From Thiomicrorhabdus aquaedulcis (GTDB lineage Bacteria; Pseudomonadota; Gammaproteobacteria; Thiomicrospirales; Thiomicrospiraceae): DNA of 64,000 bases. The notes beneath the pieces are model-generated. The model was not told the DNA's origin, ran no database searches, and saw only the letters and a program-made list of their open reading frames with translations. Positions 2,851 through 58,858 of the stretch are shown here, piece by piece (the stretch's first letter is position 1; each line of letters starts with the position of its first letter). The stretch lies in contig NZ_AP018722.1 in NCBI RefSeq assembly GCF_004001325.1, positions 1,984,001-2,048,000 of the forward strand, written 5' to 3'. Both the position numbers and the translations under genes were made by a program.

Positions 2851-5800
2851 TTAAAACATAACAACCTTATTACGGCCATTTTCTTTTGCTTTGTATAACG
2901 CTTTGTCAGCTTGTTTTAGTAGGGTTTTTGCGGCCGCTTCGCTGTCCACCGTTGCACTTATGCCCCCTATGCTAATGGTTACACGCTCAGCCACCGCCGA
3001 ATAGGCGTGGTTAAAATTTAACGCCCATACGGCGTGACGTATTTTTTCGGCCATAGTGCGCACGCCTTCGGCATCGGTTTCGGGCAAGAGCACAACAAAT
3101 TCTTCACCCCCATAACGGGCAAATAAATCGGCCGAACGTTGAAATACCGATCCAATAGCCTGCGCCACTTTAATCAAACATTCGTCCCCTTTGCCGTGTC
3201 CATAGTGATCGTTAAAGGGTTTAAAATAGTCAATGTCCAGCATTATTAAGCCCAACGGTTGCCCGTTACGCACAAGACGCTGACTCTCTTTTTTAAGGGT
3301 TTCATCAAACTGGCGGCGATTGGCGATGCCGGTTAAGCCGTCAAGGTGCGACTCTAATTCAAGCAAATCGGTTTTTATTTTTAAATTAATCTGGCTGCCC
3401 ACACGTACCTTAATAATGGGTAACTTGAAGGGCTTGGTAATATAGTCAACAGCGCCCAACTCTAAACCACGTTGCTCGTCAATAGAACCGTCCAAAGCGG
3501 TTACAAACATCACCGGAATATTTTGGGTTTGAGGGTTGTTTTTGAGTGTTTTAATCACCTCAAAGCCATCCATTTCAGGCATTACAACATCCAGTAAAAT
3601 AATATCGGGTTGCGGCAAGGCCTCGGCCAGTCGTAAGGCTTTTTTGCCTGAATCGGCGGCCTGAATTACATAATCGTCTTTTAGGCCATTGGCCAACACT
3701 TTAATATTGGTAGACTGATCATCAACGATTAACACACGTCCTTTACGCGCTATGCTATCGACTTTACCCACGTACTCTTGGGTATCGGACTGTACATTAG
3801 CCACACTGCCGTCACCTTTTTTAAAGACACTCTCAATATAGGGTTCTCCCAAAATACGTTTTAAACACGCAAACAATTCCGGTCGGCTTATGGGTTTGGT
3901 AAGGTGGTCATTCATGCCTGCGGCCAATGCTTTGGCTCGGTCTTCAACCGCCGCCGCGGTTAAAGCCACAATGGGCAAGGCACTGTTAAATTGACGTATG
4001 GCCTGACAGGCCTGGTAACCATCCATAATGGGCATTTGAATATCCATTAAAACCAAATCAAAGGCTTGAATTTTTGCTTTTTCAACGGCTTTTTCACCGT
4101 TTTCAGCCAGACTCACCTCTAAACCAAACTGGCGCAGTAGCTCAGTGGCCACTTCTTGATTAATGTCATTGTCCTCAACCAAAAGCACTCGTCCCTTAAA
4201 GACAATATGGCGCTGAGTTAATTGCGTGTCTTGTTCTAATAGCGTCCATTGTTGAGCGTCACTCAGCTTATCTAACGGCAAACAAAACGTAACGCAAGTG
4301 CCTTTGTTTTCTTCACTTATTATCGAAACCGCACCTCCGCCCATGGCGCGTACTAGGCTTTGGCAAATTGCCAACCCTAAACCAGAACCGCTGTAACGAC
4401 GTGTAATGGTGGTATCAACTTGGCTAAAGGCTTTAAAAAGCGTTGCTTGCTGTTGCTGGCTTATGCCTATTCCGGTGTCTTTAACCGCAAAACAAATACC
4501 GGCTGGACTATAAGGCGTTAAATGAACGCTGACCTGACCGTGCTGAGTAAACTTTATCGCATTAGCAATCACATTACTTAACGCCTGTTGTAGGCGAAGT
4601 TCGTCGCCCACATACCCTTTGGCTAATAGTAAATCGACCTCAAAAACTAATACAATGCCTTTTTGTTGCGCCAGAGGTTGGTAAAGGTCATTTAACCGCT
4701 TTATAAGTGATTGCAATAAAAATGGTTTAAATTCAATGGTTAGCTTGCCGGCTTCAATTTTAGAAAAATCTAAAATATCATTCAAAATGCCTAAAAGTAT
4801 TTGTGCAGAGTGATGTGCTTTTTTTACACGTTGTCGCATTTTTGGCAGACTATTTTCTTTAATAGCCAAGTCGGTTAAGCCCAGCACCCCGTTCATTGGC
4901 GTGCGAATTTCGTGGCTCATGTTGGCTAAAAAGTCAGATTTAGCCTGATTGGCTTCGTTAGCAATTTTTCGCTGTTTGTTTAAACGTTGATTTAAACCCA
5001 ATACGCTCATTAAACTTACGCTAAGAAGTCCTAACAACACCATTAAACTGATAATGTGCCAATGGTATTGGTACCAAATATCCAGCCATCCGGTTTTTAT
5101 AGGGGTATCAAACGGTTTAACGCGCAATTGCCGCATTAGGTGTTCAACATCATCGTAATTTTTGGGGCGTGTAAAACCAAAAACCCCCGCAGCCATTGCG
5201 GCTGGATGGTCCGATTTTAATTGCAACAGCGCAATTGTTAACGAATTAGCCTGGCGCTCGTTTACCGTTGATAAAGCCAAAATAGGCCACTCGGGATACA
5301 GCTTAGTTGAGTGTGCAAAAGGGTACGCTAAATCGCTTTGGGCATTAATAACTTTAATTTGCGACCAGTTAAGCTCACCCTGTGCAATCATCGCCTCTAA
5401 AACACCCGTGCGTACAAATCCCACGTCGGCCTCGCCACTTAACACTTTATGCACCACCCTGTCGTGCGGCATGCCCGTGATAAGCACACTCTGATGATCC
5501 GGCGCGGCTAATCCAGACTCCAGCATTTGATAAACCTGCATTTGATAACCGCCTAACGAACCGTGAGTAACGGCGGCAATGCGCTGATTGGGTAAATCCA
5601 GTAAGGTATTTATGTTATTTTGGTTTGCACGCGTAAAAATCACCCCACTAAACGTATTAATGGGTTTACCATGTTCTTGGCGTGTTAGCGTAACAAGTGG
5701 CCCTGACATCTGTAGATTTAAACGCTTACGCAATGAAACATAATGCGCTGGATTGGTCACCACCAAATCAAGCTCTCCGGCATGCAATTGCTGCTCTAAA

Positions 5801-6211: not shown

Positions 6212-9200
6212 TTAAGCCGCGTTTAGTTGTGTCATAAGGCGGTGTAATACGCCTTGAGCCAAATCAAAATCAAACTCTTCGATGGCCAATTCAAAGGAAT
6301 GCCAAGTCGCCTGCAATGAACTGGGCATGCGCTGACTCAATAATTGCAACTCGCCCTCATCGATGTATTCGCTGGCGGCCACCCGCTGGGTTAAAACCTG
6401 CAGTTGAGCCAATAGCTCGTCTTTGGATGTTGTCTGCATGGCCATAACGCCTTCGTTGTTAACCTTGTCCTGAGCAAGGTACTCTCTAATTTGATGCTGC
6501 GTCATGGTCATCGCCTCGACCAATTGCGCATGCTGTTGCGCAGTAGGACATTGATGCTGTTTAATCAGGGTATCAATATCAGTCACTATCAACGCCAAAT
6601 TTTGAGCTGCTAAATTACCAGCAACGCCTTTTAAAGAGTGATTGAGTGTTTGTGCATTTAACCAGGCCTGGTCATCTGATTTTGACTTAAATTGCTTATT
6701 AACAAGGTTAAATTAGCAAACTCTTGCGTTAACTGTTCATCAAAGCGTTTTAGCAGTTTACGATACAACGCCTCATTGCCACCCAGCTGTGTTAAACCCT
6801 GCTGAATGTTTAGCATGTCGATCGAATGGTGATGATTTTGTTGCACAATTGGCTTGTCTATAGGCGCGTCACTCTTAGACTCGATTGGCTCAAAGTAATG
6901 ACCCAACGCCTTAAATAAAGCCTGGGAATCGAGGGGTTTACTTAAATGTTCATTCATTCCTGCCTTTAGGGCTTTTACGCGGTCTTCGACCATTACGGCG
7001 GCGGTTAGGGCAATAATAGGAATGTGTGGATTAAACTCACGAATGGCCAAACAGGCCTGGTAACCGTCCATAACAGGCATTTGAATGTCCATTAAAATCA
7101 GGTCAAAATGTTTATTTAGGGCTTTTTCTACCGCCACTTGACCGTTTTCAGCCAAGGTAACGTCCAAGCCAAGTCGGCGCAACTGTTCTTGAGCCACCTC
7201 TTGATTCACTTCATTGTCCTCAACCAACAACACGCTGCCTTGATAACGAATGTTTGTCTGCTGTTGCGGCAAATGATGCACCGCAAGTTGTGTTTGTTGC
7301 TGGAGCGAACAGTTGGCCAGTTCCAGCTCAAAATAAAATGTTGACCCTTTATTTAATTGGCTTTTAACCGCAATTTCACTGCCCATTAACGCCACTAATT
7401 TTGGCTAATCACCAAGCCTAAGCCTGTGCCGCCATGTTTTCGAGTAATACTGCTATCGGCCTGGCTAAAAGCGTGAAAAAGCTTTTGCAAATGCAGCTCA
7501 CTTAAACCAATGCCAGTATCGTGCACGGCAAACGTAACCTTAATTTTTTCATTTTGATCTATAGAATTTGTTTGGCTGTTTGTTTGACTGGCTGCAATTT
7601 TAATAGATAAGGTAACTTGACCTTGTGCCGTAAACTTAAGCCCGTTGCCAATCAGATTGGTTAATACTTGGCGCAGTCTTAATTCGTCGGCATACACGCA
7701 TATGTTTTCAACCCCCGCACAGTCCAATTGAAACGTAAGCCCTTTGGCGTGAGCGGTGCTAATAAATAAGCTGTAAAGATTATCGCTTAAAGTGTGCAAA
7801 TAAAACGGCTGGCAATCCAGCTCCATCTTGCTGGCCTCAATTTTAGAGAAATCAAGAATATCATTAATAATGCCCAGCAATAAACGCCCTGATTGATGCA
7901 CCTTATACAAATAATTTTGCAGTTTTTCTGGGTCTTTTTGCTTCAATCCCAACTCACTCAAACCAATAATAGCGTTCATAGGAGTACGAATTTCATGGCT
8001 CATATTGGCCAAAAACTCGGACTTTGCTTGATTAGCCGCTTCGGCTTTATCGCGAGCAATAAGCAGTTGTTGATTTTGTTGCTCTGTTTTAATTTGTAAC
8101 AGTTTTTGCTCCGCAATCACTAAATGACTGCCCATCATTTCAATGGGCTGACCTTGCTCATCGCTTTTGGTGGGATTGCCGCGCCCCTGAATCCAAACCC
8201 AATCACCTTGGGCACTTTTTAAACGAAACTCAACAATAAATGATTTTTTGTTGGCTATCTGTTGCTGAACTACCAAAAACATAGGCTCAGAATCATCGGG
8301 ATGCAACAACGTTGTAAACATCAATAAATCCAACTCAAACGCTTGCGGCTCATACCCTAATTGAACAAAGGCCTCGTCCGACCAATTTAAGCGATTGGTT
8401 TGCATATCCCATGTCCACAAACCTATTAATGCGGCTTGCATAGACAACTCAATGCGCCGACTGGTTTGCTCTAACTGAAGTTGTTGAGACTTTTGCTCTG
8501 TTATGTCTAAACCTGTTCCTCTGTAAGCAATTAACTCTCCGTGCTCTGAAAAAACAGGAACACCGCTGACTCGTTGCCAAACCCTAGTGCCATTTTGGTG
8601 AATAGAGCAATGTTCAAGATTACGAAATGGCGCTCTATTTGCGACTTTTTCTGCAAAAAAAGCCGCAGCTTTTTCTTGCTCGTTAGCCGGCATAAAGTCA
8701 AACGGGGTGTGGTTTAAGCACTGTTGCGGCGTAAGGCCTAAAATGTTTTGAATGGGATCGGACGCAAACAGATAACGCCCGTCCATGCCCACTTCCCACA
8801 CATACTCACCGGCCGCTTGCATTACATCTTGTAAGCGCTTTTCGGAGTCGATGCGCTTTTGTTGCTCTGATTTTTGTTCGGTTATGTCCAAAATAATGCC
8901 GCTTAAACAGCCAGGAACACCTTGCTCGTTATAATCTTGAGCTGACCCAGTTTCTGACACCCAAATAACGTGGCCGTCTTTATGCCAAATTCGATATTCG
9001 ATGCAATATTTTGTTTTATTCACTACGCCTTGTTGCACAGATTGTTCAACAAGCGCTAAGTCTTCTGCCAAAATAACGTCTGCCCAGGTAAGTCTGCCAT
9101 CTAAAAATGCTTGTGCCTCATAACCGCACAACCTTTGGGAATTTTGACTTACATGCAGCATTTGCCAAGGCGCATCAATTTGACAGCGATAAATCATAAC

Positions 9201-17200: not shown

Positions 17201-17277
17201 TGGTGGGCCCTCACGGACTTGAACCGTGGACCTAACGATTATGAGTCGTGTGCTCTAACCAACTGAGCTAAGGGCCC
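17201..17277 (-). tRNA. tRNA with CAU anticodon, probably tRNA-Ile2 (lysidine type)
   Basis: 77 nt with encoded CCA. The acceptor stem starts GGGCCCT, the D-loop is AGCTCAGTTGGTTAGAGC, the anticodon loop is ACTCATAAT, and the T-arm has GGTTCAAGTCC. The anticodon CAU could be Met or Ile2. The acceptor pair GGGCCC and the D and anticodon stems (CACGA / TCGTT) resemble bacterial tRNA-Ile2, which TilS modifies to read AUA, more than elongator tRNA-Met. It lies downstream of rpoD. Confidence 0.9.
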
Positions 17278-17311: not shown

Positions 17312-17339
17312 CTTAAACAACCAGGCCTGGTTGTTTAAG
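17312..17339 (-). terminator. rpoD terminator-like 28-bp perfect palindrome around ACCAGGCCTGGT
   Basis: Perfect inverted repeat with arms CTTAAACAACCAGG / CCTGGTTGTTTAAG. The 12-bp iterated palindrome (17320-17331) is the exact centre. In the rpoD direction it is followed by TTTTACAGTTTT, so the RNA hairpin could terminate rpoD before the tRNA. Confidence 0.75.
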
Positions 17340-17450
17340 CGGCGCTTATTATAGCGCCTGTTTAATATTTTTTAAATCTTTATGGTCAATATATACGTTT
17401 AAAACTGGCCTAAAATGCGTTTTAAACCAACTTTAAACCACGGGTAATCG

Positions 17451-23406: not shown

Positions 23407-23442
23407 AAAATCGTTTTGACCAGGCCTGGTCAAAACGATTTT
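23407..23442. terminator. 36-bp perfect palindrome centred on ACCAGGCCTGGT, bidirectional terminator
   Basis: Arms of 18 bases (AAAATCGTTTTGACCAGG and its complement) are perfect. The iterated 12-mer is at 23419-23430. It lies between the convergent tsaD and plsY, five bases past the tsaD stop. T-rich tails on both strands (CGATTTT) suit a two-way terminator. Confidence 0.8.
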
Positions 23443-23472: not shown

Positions 23473-24099
23473 CTATTTGGCTTTAATTAAACTCTCTTCA
23501 CCGCTTATTAAGCGTTCAATATTACCCCGATGACGCCAAAATAAAAGCATGGTCATTAAGCCTGAAACCAAAATCCAACTCACTTCATCGGCTAAAAAGT
23601 AAATATACAATGGCGCTAAAAAGCTCGCTATTAAAGCCGACAACGACGAAATTTTAAGCACCTTTGCCGCAAACAACCACGTAGCGGCTACCGCCAAACC
23701 AATGGGTAACGACAACCCAAACATCACCCCCAGCATAGTGGCCACGCCTTTGCCGCCTTTAAAACCAAAAAACACTGGATAAAGATGCCCAATAAACGCC
23801 GCAAACCCCACCAACACAATGACCAGGCCTGGTAGGTTAAACGCGTGCGCCACCAATACTGGCAATAAGCCTTTTAACATGTCGCCCACTAGAGTAATCG
23901 CCGCCGCTTTTTTGCCTTTATCGCCGCCAATTCGCAACACATTAGTAGCACCCGGATTGCCCGAACCACCCTCTCGTGGGTCACCCAACCCCATGACTTT
24001 ACACACAATAATAGCCGTTGAAACAGAGCCTAACACATAGGCCGCCGCAATAAATCCAAGTGCCTGAAAATCCATTATCGTGTGTATCAATGTGTCCAT
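23473..24099 (-). CDS. plsY: Glycerol-3-phosphate acyltransferase PlsY
   Basis: 208 residues, integral membrane. PlsY acylates glycerol-3-phosphate from acyl-phosphate at the inner membrane, the first step of phospholipid synthesis. The three conserved cytosolic motifs are visible: GSGNPGATNVLR (the G-S-G-N-x-G-x-T-N signature), GHLYPVFFGFKGGKGVAT, and a third region after the fourth helix. Hydrophobic segments match the usual five helices. An in-frame ACCAGGCCTGGT supplies Leu-Pro-Gly-Leu-Val in a membrane segment. Confidence 0.95.
   Translation of the reverse strand: MDTLIHTIMDFQALGFIAAAYVLGSVSTAIIVCKVMGLGDPREGGSGNPGATNVLRIGGDKGKKAAAITLVGDMLKGLLPVLVAHAFNLPGLVIVLVGFAAFIGHLYPVFFGFKGGKGVATMLGVMFGLSLPIGLAVAATWLFAAKVLKISSLSALIASFLAPLYIYFLADEVSWILVSGLMTMLLFWRHRGNIERLISGEESLIKAK
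23822..23833. repeat. Palindrome ACCAGGCCTGGT, copy 7 (coding)
   Basis: Exact copy inside plsY, read as L-P-G-L-V, a different frame from the D-Q-A-W copies. Confidence 0.95.
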
Positions 24100-49682: not shown

Positions 49683-49702
49683 CTTAACCAGGCCTGGTTA
49701 AG
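49683..49702. repeat. 20-bp palindrome centred on ACCAGGCCTGGT, copy 17
   Basis: CTTAACCAGG / CCTGGTTAAG, perfect, with the 12-mer at 49687-49698, 33 bases past the transporter stop. No T run follows, so termination is uncertain. Confidence 0.9.
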
Positions 49703-53465: not shown

Positions 53466-53550
53466 CCAGAACCCGCTGGTTACAACGGGTTTCAAGGGGC
53501 TTAAACTCCCACTTGCCAATCTAAACCTTCAAACTGAACCTTCAAAAACC

Positions 53551-53587
53551 AAAAAGCCGATTTAAGAAATTCTTAAATCGGCTTTTT
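53551..53587. terminator. Bidirectional terminator between folE2 and the helicase
   Basis: Perfect 18-base arms (AAAAAGCCGATTTAAGAA and complement) with a one-base centre and T runs both ways, between convergent genes. Confidence 0.92.
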
Positions 53588-53612
53588 GGGTTCCAACTAC
53601 TGTAAAACCGAT

Positions 53613-53630
53613 TTGACCAGGCCTGGTCAA
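53613..53630. repeat. 18-bp palindrome around ACCAGGCCTGGT, copy 19
   Basis: TTGACCAGG / CCTGGTCAA, a second hairpin between the terminator and the helicase stop (53685). The 12-mer is 53616-53627. Confidence 0.92.
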
Positions 53631-53684
53631 GTGGGTTTTAAAAAGGTTTTAAAGTGTTTTTAAAGGCTTTAAAAGCGTTGGGGA

Positions 53685-58773: not shown

Positions 58774-58821
58774 TTAACCAGGCCTGGTTAAACCTCATCT
58801 GATCAGGCCTGGTCACTTTTT
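58774..58821. terminator. Paired palindromes after the MBL-fold gene
   Basis: First TTAACCAGG / CCTGGTTAA (58774-58791, exact 12-mer copy 20 at 58777-58788). Then a one-mismatch copy (58802-58813) followed by a run of T at 58817-58823. They lie between the convergent MBL-fold and EI24 genes and could terminate the first. Confidence 0.75.
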
Positions 58822-58858
58822 TTAGCGTCATGTCTTTTAACCACTGACCAATTACCTA

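Follow-up and report, generated by a model that had tools for sequence, protein, structure and literature searches.

The 12-letter word ACCAGGCCTGGT, a palindrome that recurs throughout the genome of Thiomicrorhabdus aquaedulcis, on balance seems to work like a DNA uptake sequence that has been co-opted as the core of RNA hairpins. The wider proposal, that it belongs to a third, independent lineage of uptake sequences near Thiomicrospira, in which the commonest dialects are palindromic and suited to a two-sided receptor, species switch between palindromic and non-palindromic words, and words are recycled as terminator and tRNA-leader stems, stands in our judgment at about even odds. One hairpin built on the word is the 28-bp palindrome at 17312–17339 of the window (the whole 64-kb stretch of DNA that was analyzed), which a sequence-only reading had taken for a terminator and which proves to be the 5' leader hairpin of a tRNA-Met transcript.

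The window contains 20 perfect copies of ACCAGGCCTGGT, eight of them genic according to a home-made gene caller, and 29 matches with at most one mismatch, compared with 0.09 in shuffles. The perfect copies start at the following positions.

Copies 1 to 10: 6661 (6661–6672), 16039, 17320, 19474, 21459, 23419, 23822, 35665, 37337, 38316
Copies 11 to 20: 39697, 42422, 44143, 45417, 47537, 49029, 49687, 51356, 53616, 58777

The genome (G000; 2,537,035 bases in 2 contigs) has 718 copies, about one per 3.5 kb, and no copy of the reversed-word control. The consensus is comprised of an inner 8-mer core, CAGGCCTG, and a softer symmetric flank, tNA..TNa. Placement was determined in 20 stretches of 20 kb together with the window (464 of 2,537 kb, about a fifth of the genome), with genes called by a simple home-made script that misses some open reading frames. 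This sample has 132 copies, 68 intergenic, 62 genic, and 2 across a gene edge; copies overlapping a gene edge (these 2 and 1 in the relative G030) were dropped. Gaps have 93 copies per 100 kb and genes have 16. Among the gaps, convergent ones have 235 copies per 100 kb, tandem ones 77, and divergent ones 57, and 33 of the 40 copies in tandem gaps lie closer to the upstream stop, with tails that are only mildly T-rich (3.75 T versus 3.30 A per 10 nt). Placement is similar in G030 (27 intergenic and 23 genic copies), the word of another relative, G023, is less gap-biased (61 intergenic and 98 genic copies; 113, 64, and 80 per 100 kb), and all six sampled copies in G035 are genic. The second contig of G000 (C2, L267; 96.8 kb) has only 5 copies against 28 expected (p about 1e-7). 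Its genes (9 ORFs of the first 20 kb) include a Rep3 initiator, ParA/ParB-like proteins, an F-type TraN, RecT, and an EcoRI-like methylase beside a GmrSD/HNH protein, and the Rep3, ParA/ParB-like, and TraN genes identify the contig as a plasmid. A word-free region is seen in G036 (C1:209038–292354), where 83 kb lack the 12-mer in a genome that otherwise has it every few kilobases; this is perhaps a recently acquired island. The window also has four plus-strand sites of a 15-mer, AATTTCATGGCTCAT (1190, 4906 with one mismatch, 7989, and 34439; 0.17 expected), of which at least those at 4906, 7989, and 34439 lie inside large minus-strand ORFs and perhaps reflect a shared protein motif.

Copy numbers of the core CAGGCCTG are bimodal in 37 genomes of the family, with 236–1173 copies in 18 genomes and at most 74 in 19; genomes are called motif-bearing by CAGGCCTG and motif-poor where no word was seen, and several of the relatives' genomes are incomplete. 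Outside the family, each of 365 genomes from a class sample of 370 has at most five copies of the 12-mer. A DnaG scan returned two Thiomicrospira records (64% and 56% identity) with 7 (L031) and 1 (L032) perfect copies and 11 and 9 copies of the 8-mer in 21.7 kb each, and the other 78 loci of that scan have no perfect copy and at most three of the 8-mer. These two nearest named relatives place the host among the gammaproteobacteria near Thiomicrospira, and by this kinship it is probably a sulfur oxidizer. Some relatives use other words. The palindrome ACCGGCCGGT occurs 1025 times in G023, which has 0 copies of ACCAGGCCTGGT, and the non-palindrome ACAGGCCGGGT occurs 503 times in G020 and 293 times in G004, with at most four copies per other genome, both strands together. 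The G020 word was found by searching 5–40 kb of each of 16 CAGGCCTG-poor genomes, a search that may miss weak dialects, and the G023 word was found by the same kind of scan. Some copies of ACAGGCCGGGT are paired head-to-head: the 100 listed places in G020 (99 neighbor pairs) include seven +− pairs at 21–25 bp and no −+ pair within 60 bp, with about 0.5 pairs expected within 30 bp. In G005, G008, G018, and G025, where the search key was the inner 8-mer, the two positions flanking it are looser than in G000. Modeling of orientation suggested that the word is asymmetric in G025 and G035, with a marginal signal in G005; it also gave a small gain over the null in G000 and G036, and none in G008, G023, and G030. 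In two motif-poor relatives (L254 of G029 and L255 of G017), runs of at least eight G or C are strongly enriched and are possibly phase-variable tracts.

The region around the 28-bp palindrome reads, on the minus strand, rpoD stop, terminator-like hairpin, promoter, palindrome, and tRNA-Met.

17397–17438, minus strand: terminator-like hairpin that follows rpoD and precedes the tRNA promoter (consensus scan)
17348–17376, minus strand: sigma-70-like promoter TTTAAA-17-TATAAT before tRNA-Met (consensus scan)
17312–17339, minus strand: 28-bp palindrome, the 5' leader hairpin of the tRNA-Met transcript, 8 nt after TATAAT, with arms that covary in 13 species
17201–17277, minus strand: tRNA-Met (CAT), called by ARAGORN and Rfam RF00005, the only match in an Rfam scan of the window

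The terminator reading of this site is rejected, as the palindrome adjoins the tRNA-Met promoter and sits at the start of the transcript, 8 nt after the −10 box. The rpoD-tRNA gap was searched with RpoD in 30 genomes, of which 26 were readable and four (G006, G022, G023, and G032) were not. TATAAT precedes tRNA-Met in all 26 readable gaps, G000 included, and a GC-rich, T-tailed hairpin, read by eye, is found in the same rpoD-tRNA order in several relatives (e.g. G003, G009, G016, G021, and G030). The core is present in the leader of 13 of 17 motif-bearing species compared with 0 of 9 others (p 0.0002). Alignment of the 13 leaders on the core agrees with the earlier description of arms that vary around a fixed core, since the core is kept across species and 9 of the 12 arm pairs change on both sides. 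The arm cells are paired in 88.4% of cases; column shuffles give 68.8%, with none of 500 reaching the observed value, and sliding the partner gives no more than 43%. Since related species share ancestry, the 13 leaders do not amount to 13 independent events. The arms also contain G-U pairs, as in G005 and G007, which is more consistent with a hairpin in RNA than with a palindrome in DNA. Single leader folds exceed simple shuffles at the 5% level in only 8 of the 13 word-bearing leaders and in 3 of the 13 that lack the word, and the case for the hairpin therefore rests on covariation. Twelve of the 13 leaders without the word fold with at least four pairs, suggesting that the leader hairpin exists also without it. 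As to its role, 5'-end protection or timing of RNase P cleavage are guesses, and we know of no described function for a covarying hairpin at the start of an rpoD-linked tRNA-Met transcript. The leader presents a genome-wide word fitted into an RNA structure, with the core frozen and the arms, G-U pairs included, covarying.

The five palindromes of 28, 36, 20, 18, and 18 bp centered on ACCAGGCCTGGT were correctly recognized from the sequence, and each equals its own reverse complement. Hairpins at the four sites other than the leader are as follows.

23407–23442, unstranded: 36-bp palindrome, predicted bidirectional terminator hairpin between convergent tsaD and plsY (fold −21.0/−20.6 kcal/mol, z −6.3/−6.4)
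49683–49702, plus strand: 20-bp palindrome in a gap between tandem genes (−10.0 kcal/mol, a value matched by 20 of 200 shuffles)
53603–53640, unstranded: hairpin around the 18-bp palindrome 53613–53630 (plus strand −22.7 kcal/mol, z −4.6; minus strand −14.9 kcal/mol, z −2.8)
58777–58813, plus strand: two copies 25 bp apart, the second (at 58802) with one mismatch, in one 14-pair hairpin (−23.4 kcal/mol, z −5.6)

By the ORF list, three of the sites lie between convergent genes and not two as first counted: 23407 (tsaD/plsY) and 53613 (folE2/SrmB-like helicase), with neighbors named by NCBIfam, and 58774, between a metallo-hydrolase-like gene and a weak match to a sulfate-transporter family. The placement of most sites just past stop codons is correct for three, which are within 35 bp of a stop (4, 32, and 14 bp), and incorrect for 17312 and 53613, which are separated from the rpoD and folE2 stops by 111 and 147 bp, respectively. 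Likewise, the description as terminator-like hairpins applies to 23407, 53613, and 58774, where a stable fold and a T-rich tail fit termination as predicted from the folds, and fails for the leader at 17312 and for 49683, whose weak fold is not beyond shuffles. The stem at 23407 has 16 pairs on either strand. At 53613 the RNA stem is longer than the DNA palindrome, and an ordinary terminator-like hairpin (53548–53592; 19 pairs, T5, −27.9 kcal/mol) lies just upstream. The single palindrome at 58774 folds at only −6.1 kcal/mol versus −23.4 kcal/mol for the two-copy hairpin, which is followed by T7 at 58817–58823.

Comparison of the tsaD-plsY gap with that of relatives shows motif hairpins at a place where some relatives have ordinary ones. 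Folding gave ordinary T-tailed hairpins in G003, G013, and G019; G007 and G009 have a palindrome with different arms, and G005, G006, and G008 have a hairpin with one copy per arm (one of them degenerate in G006). The core is found in this gap, in hairpins, in 6 of 12 motif-bearing compared with 0 of 8 other genomes. Inverted pairs of copies forming hairpins are seen at single sites, namely 58777, the tsaD gap of G005, G006, and G008, and the rpoD gap of G023, where the rpoD terminator, read by eye, consists of two inverted copies of that genome's own word and a T-rich tail. Behind tsaD in G012, G016, and G020 (L225, L216, and L219) lies a repeat that by eye ends in GAGACCTTTGCACGAG or a sequence near it, looking like an IS end or a MITE.

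Perfect arms of at least 6 bp around ACCAGGCCTGGT are found at 7 of 68 intergenic and 0 of 62 genic copies in G000, and at 11 of 95 versus 0 of 85 when G030 is included (p = 0.0007). Perfect arms of 3–5 bp have an equal share in G000 (9 of 68 copies in gaps, 8 of 62 in genes). Equal extension inside genes, which the sequence-only reading had named as the observation that would speak against its hairpins, is therefore seen for the 3–5-bp arms, and arms of at least 6 bp are confined to gaps. Because only the long arms are gap-restricted, the 28- and 36-bp palindromes stand out, whereas arms as short as those of the two 18-bp palindromes, and almost of the 20-bp one, are nothing out of the ordinary; the 18-mer TTGACCAGGCCTGGTCAA is found inside genes too. 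The long-arm effect is missing in G023 (1 of 61 intergenic versus 1 of 98 genic copies). With G-U pairs and one mismatch allowed, RNA extension by at least eight pairs is found in G000 at 13 of 61 copies in convergent or tandem gaps versus 3 of 62 genic copies (p 0.006); the same comparison is not significant in G030 (5 of 25 versus 2 of 23, p 0.24) or G023 (3 of 49 versus 5 of 96, p 0.55), nor are RNA arms significantly longer in the gaps of G030 (p 0.13). In G000, copies in gaps and copies in genes are alike in local-window folding energy (p 0.53).

What maintains the word has several conceivable answers other than uptake. It may be the binding site of a homodimeric chromosome-organizing or regulatory protein, present once per few kilobases, to which we give a small but real chance. 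The perfect dyad symmetry and symmetric flank consensus agree with such a site, as does the depletion on the plasmid, and in the 20 spaced stretches the 12-mer is under-dispersed (index 0.30, p 0.0016). This even spacing is significant by one of four measures; the other three give 0.66 (p 0.14) for the 8-mer over those 20 stretches, 0.73 (p 0.20) for the G023 word, and 0.79 at 20 kb (p 0.31) for the first 100 copies, which span 311 kb. G000 has no surplus of close pairs (4 versus 5.2 expected), nor do G030 (2 versus 2.4) and G023 (3 versus 5.3); the counts are 3 versus 1.6 expected in G005 and 4 versus 1.2 in G025. A homodimer site is difficult to reconcile with a non-palindromic dialect that forms head-to-head pairs, with copies that gather behind genes and are sparsest in divergent gaps, and with the patchy gain and loss of the word between sister species, the motif-bearing label changing at least 4–5 times on the rpoD tree (a quick tree, with G020 and G023 scored negative despite their other dialects).

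A slim chance remains for a HIP1-like word that a DNA methyltransferase, together with biased mismatch repair, keeps in place, that plays no part in uptake, and whose hairpins are a by-product. The available part of PMC4390886 describes for cyanobacterial HIP1 a palindrome with hundreds of copies in genes and gaps and alternate palindromes in relatives, as found here, and also a concentration of one-mismatch copies at outer positions; in our data, one-mismatch copies number 51 versus 0.7 expected, and 45 of the 51 differ at the two outer positions. Of the two methyltransferase families searched, however, neither tracks the word, which argues against the cyanobacterial mechanism: C5 methyltransferases (PF00145, above cut-off) are present in 7 of 18 motif-bearing versus 8 of 19 other genomes, N4/N6 methyltransferases (PF01555) in 5 of 18 versus 5 of 19, and 9 of the 18 motif-bearing genomes have neither. 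G000 itself has one C5 methyltransferase. Outside the core, the embedded sites AGGCCT, CCWGG, and GGCC occur at 0.7- to 1.4-fold of expectation, with AGGCCT the only one above it (1.4-fold), and the ACAGGCCGGGT dialect is not a palindrome.

It is very unlikely that the word is simply a terminator hairpin that multiplied on account of its terminating function, the genic copies being spill-over, although the earlier placement of the word within terminators at gene ends is partly supported by our data. Copies are densest in convergent gaps and enriched behind stops, and a fifth of the predicted terminators in G000 (11 of 55) carry ACCAGGCCTGGT. These were obtained by a simple hairpin-plus-T search behind genes, in which a bidirectional hairpin may count for both genes. 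The word is likewise present in 6 of 37 predicted terminators in G030, 6 of 30 in G005, and 6 of 56 in G023 (own dialect), with low values in G025 (1 of 22), G035 (0 of 13), and G036 (1 of 8); together, seven motif-bearing species have it in 31 of 221 and eight motif-poor relatives in 0 of 48. The word is in 0 of 4 predicted terminators in the 40 kb sampled from G020. Some of this excess is to be expected, as each copy contributes a 4-bp stem. Against a terminator family, 62 of the 132 sampled copies are genic, 52 of the 68 gap copies in G000 have arms shorter than 3 bp, motif-poor relatives are not short of terminators (48 per 165 gene ends versus 55 per 271 in G000), and the site at 17312 is a leader.

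A short mobile repeat (REP/MITE-like) inserted 718 times would explain the copy number and the high identity over 12 bp, but is barely credible given that the flanks share little sequence beyond about 12 bp from the center, that the arms covary at an orthologous place, and that insertion is rejected at the one genic site examined.

23822–23833, unstranded: genic copy in plsY, made by substitutions (no gap in 24 of 24 aligned plsY sequences)

The alignment is comprised of sequences from 24 of 30 loci, and at this one site the copy arose by substitution and not by insertion, since the alignment is gap-free and the 23 other sequences have other codons.

An uptake word fits the data best, because of the dialects, one of which is asymmetric and paired, the half-site flank GGT-n-R-w-w (with A or G at position 8 in 92% of 200 copies), the plasmid depletion, the presence of ComEC, and the absence of C5 or N4/N6 methyltransferases that track the word. 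The features shared with DUS and USS are a copy number in the hundreds, well beyond chance and spread over both genes and gaps, the existence of dialects, a competence channel, and plasmid depletion; a non-palindromic unit is found in the G020/G004 dialect and not in G000, where the word is a palindrome. ComEC is present in 33 of 37 genomes, G000 included, and has no discriminating power, as it is found in genomes with and without the word. N-methyl pilins number 6–15 in each of 24 genomes, with no clear link to the word. ComP is a minor pilin that acts as a DNA uptake receptor, and by analogy with it the receptor here is most likely a minor pilin. Such a surface receptor would prefer DNA holding ACCAGGCCTGGT, and repeated uptake and recombination would spread the word, where it is tolerated, to a density near one copy every 3.5 kb, mainly in gaps behind genes. 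Being self-complementary, the word is a ready-made stem-loop (ACCA/TGGT stem, GGCC loop). Where an RNA hairpin was already wanted, as in terminators and the tRNA-Met leader, point mutations in the flanks could lengthen this stem, and selection would then keep the extended arms paired.

We liken ACCAGGCCTGGT to an uptake sequence and do not class it as one, since ComEC occurs also in word-free species and known uptake words are, according to the available part of PMC1939737, non-palindromic. A palindromic uptake word would consequently need a dimeric or two-sided receptor, and would constrain how the pilus tip reads DNA. Also weighing against an uptake word are the inconsistent spacing, the lack of surplus close pairs in G000, G030, and G023, the missing long-arm effect in G023, the all-genic sample of G035, the few word-bearing terminators in G025, G035, G036, and G020, the folding energies of G000 and RNA arms of G030 that do not set gap copies apart, and the mildly T-rich tails. 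With several related words in close species, such a family would open the origin, switching, and loss of uptake specificity to experiment in harmless bacteria that grow in the laboratory. A search of open-licence PMC text found no report of uptake or competence in this organism, no mention of the 12-mer or 8-mer, and, among the matches listed, no uptake sequence in this group; the word is not mentioned in the available part of PMC5217627.

Among known systems, Rho-independent terminators resemble the sites at 23407, 53613, and 58777–58813 in having a stem-loop and a T-rich tail. They differ from our sites in that a fixed core occupies the stem and loop here, and in that 17312 lacks the placement and 49683 the stability. 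Cyanobacterial HIP1 (GCGATCGC) and the alternate HIPs are likewise iterated palindromes swapped for other palindromes in some relatives (PMC4390886, in part). The word differs from HIP1 in having no tie to the two methyltransferase families tested, one non-palindromic dialect, and a strong bias to gaps behind genes. In the literature examined, as far as the excerpts extend, uptake words are described only for Neisseriaceae and Pasteurellaceae. The Pasteurellaceae USS (AAGTGCGGT n r w w w w w) has a copy density of the same order and is found in terminators (PMC1852404, in part). The half-site end GGT-n-R-w-w also resembles the Haemophilus extended motif AAGTGCGGTnrwwwww (same source, in part), a likeness that implies no descent. 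USS is asymmetric with A/T tracts on one side, whereas the flanks here are on both sides. The share of likely operon ends with a word-bearing terminator is 16–29% in Pasteurellaceae and 54–57% in Neisseria according to the available part of PMC1852404; a more recent survey (PMC13020248, in part) puts these shares at up to 22% and 37%.

The proposed analogy with the paired uptake sequences of Neisseria and Haemophilus gains from the dialects, one of which is non-palindromic and paired as in Neisseria. Its premise of a palindromic unit holds for some dialects only, and, because ACAGGCCGGGT is non-palindromic, the palindromic unit is a property of those dialects and not of the system. Like the Neisseriaceae DUS (GCCGTCTGAA), the words occur in hundreds to thousands of copies, in genes and in gaps, with dialects in related species; related Neisseriaceae reportedly use altered DUS dialects. 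DUS copies are paired head-to-head in terminators, most often between convergent genes, and the available part of PMC1852404 gives a bias of 226 +− against 5 −+ pairs in Neisseria; here a likeness to this pairing is clear in the listed places of G020 and at single sites, and not in the close-pair counts of G000, G030, and G023. In contrast to DUS, the words belong to another bacterial family, uptake and its receptor are what we infer from the pattern of copies, and the commonest unit is palindromic, so that one copy makes a hairpin core.
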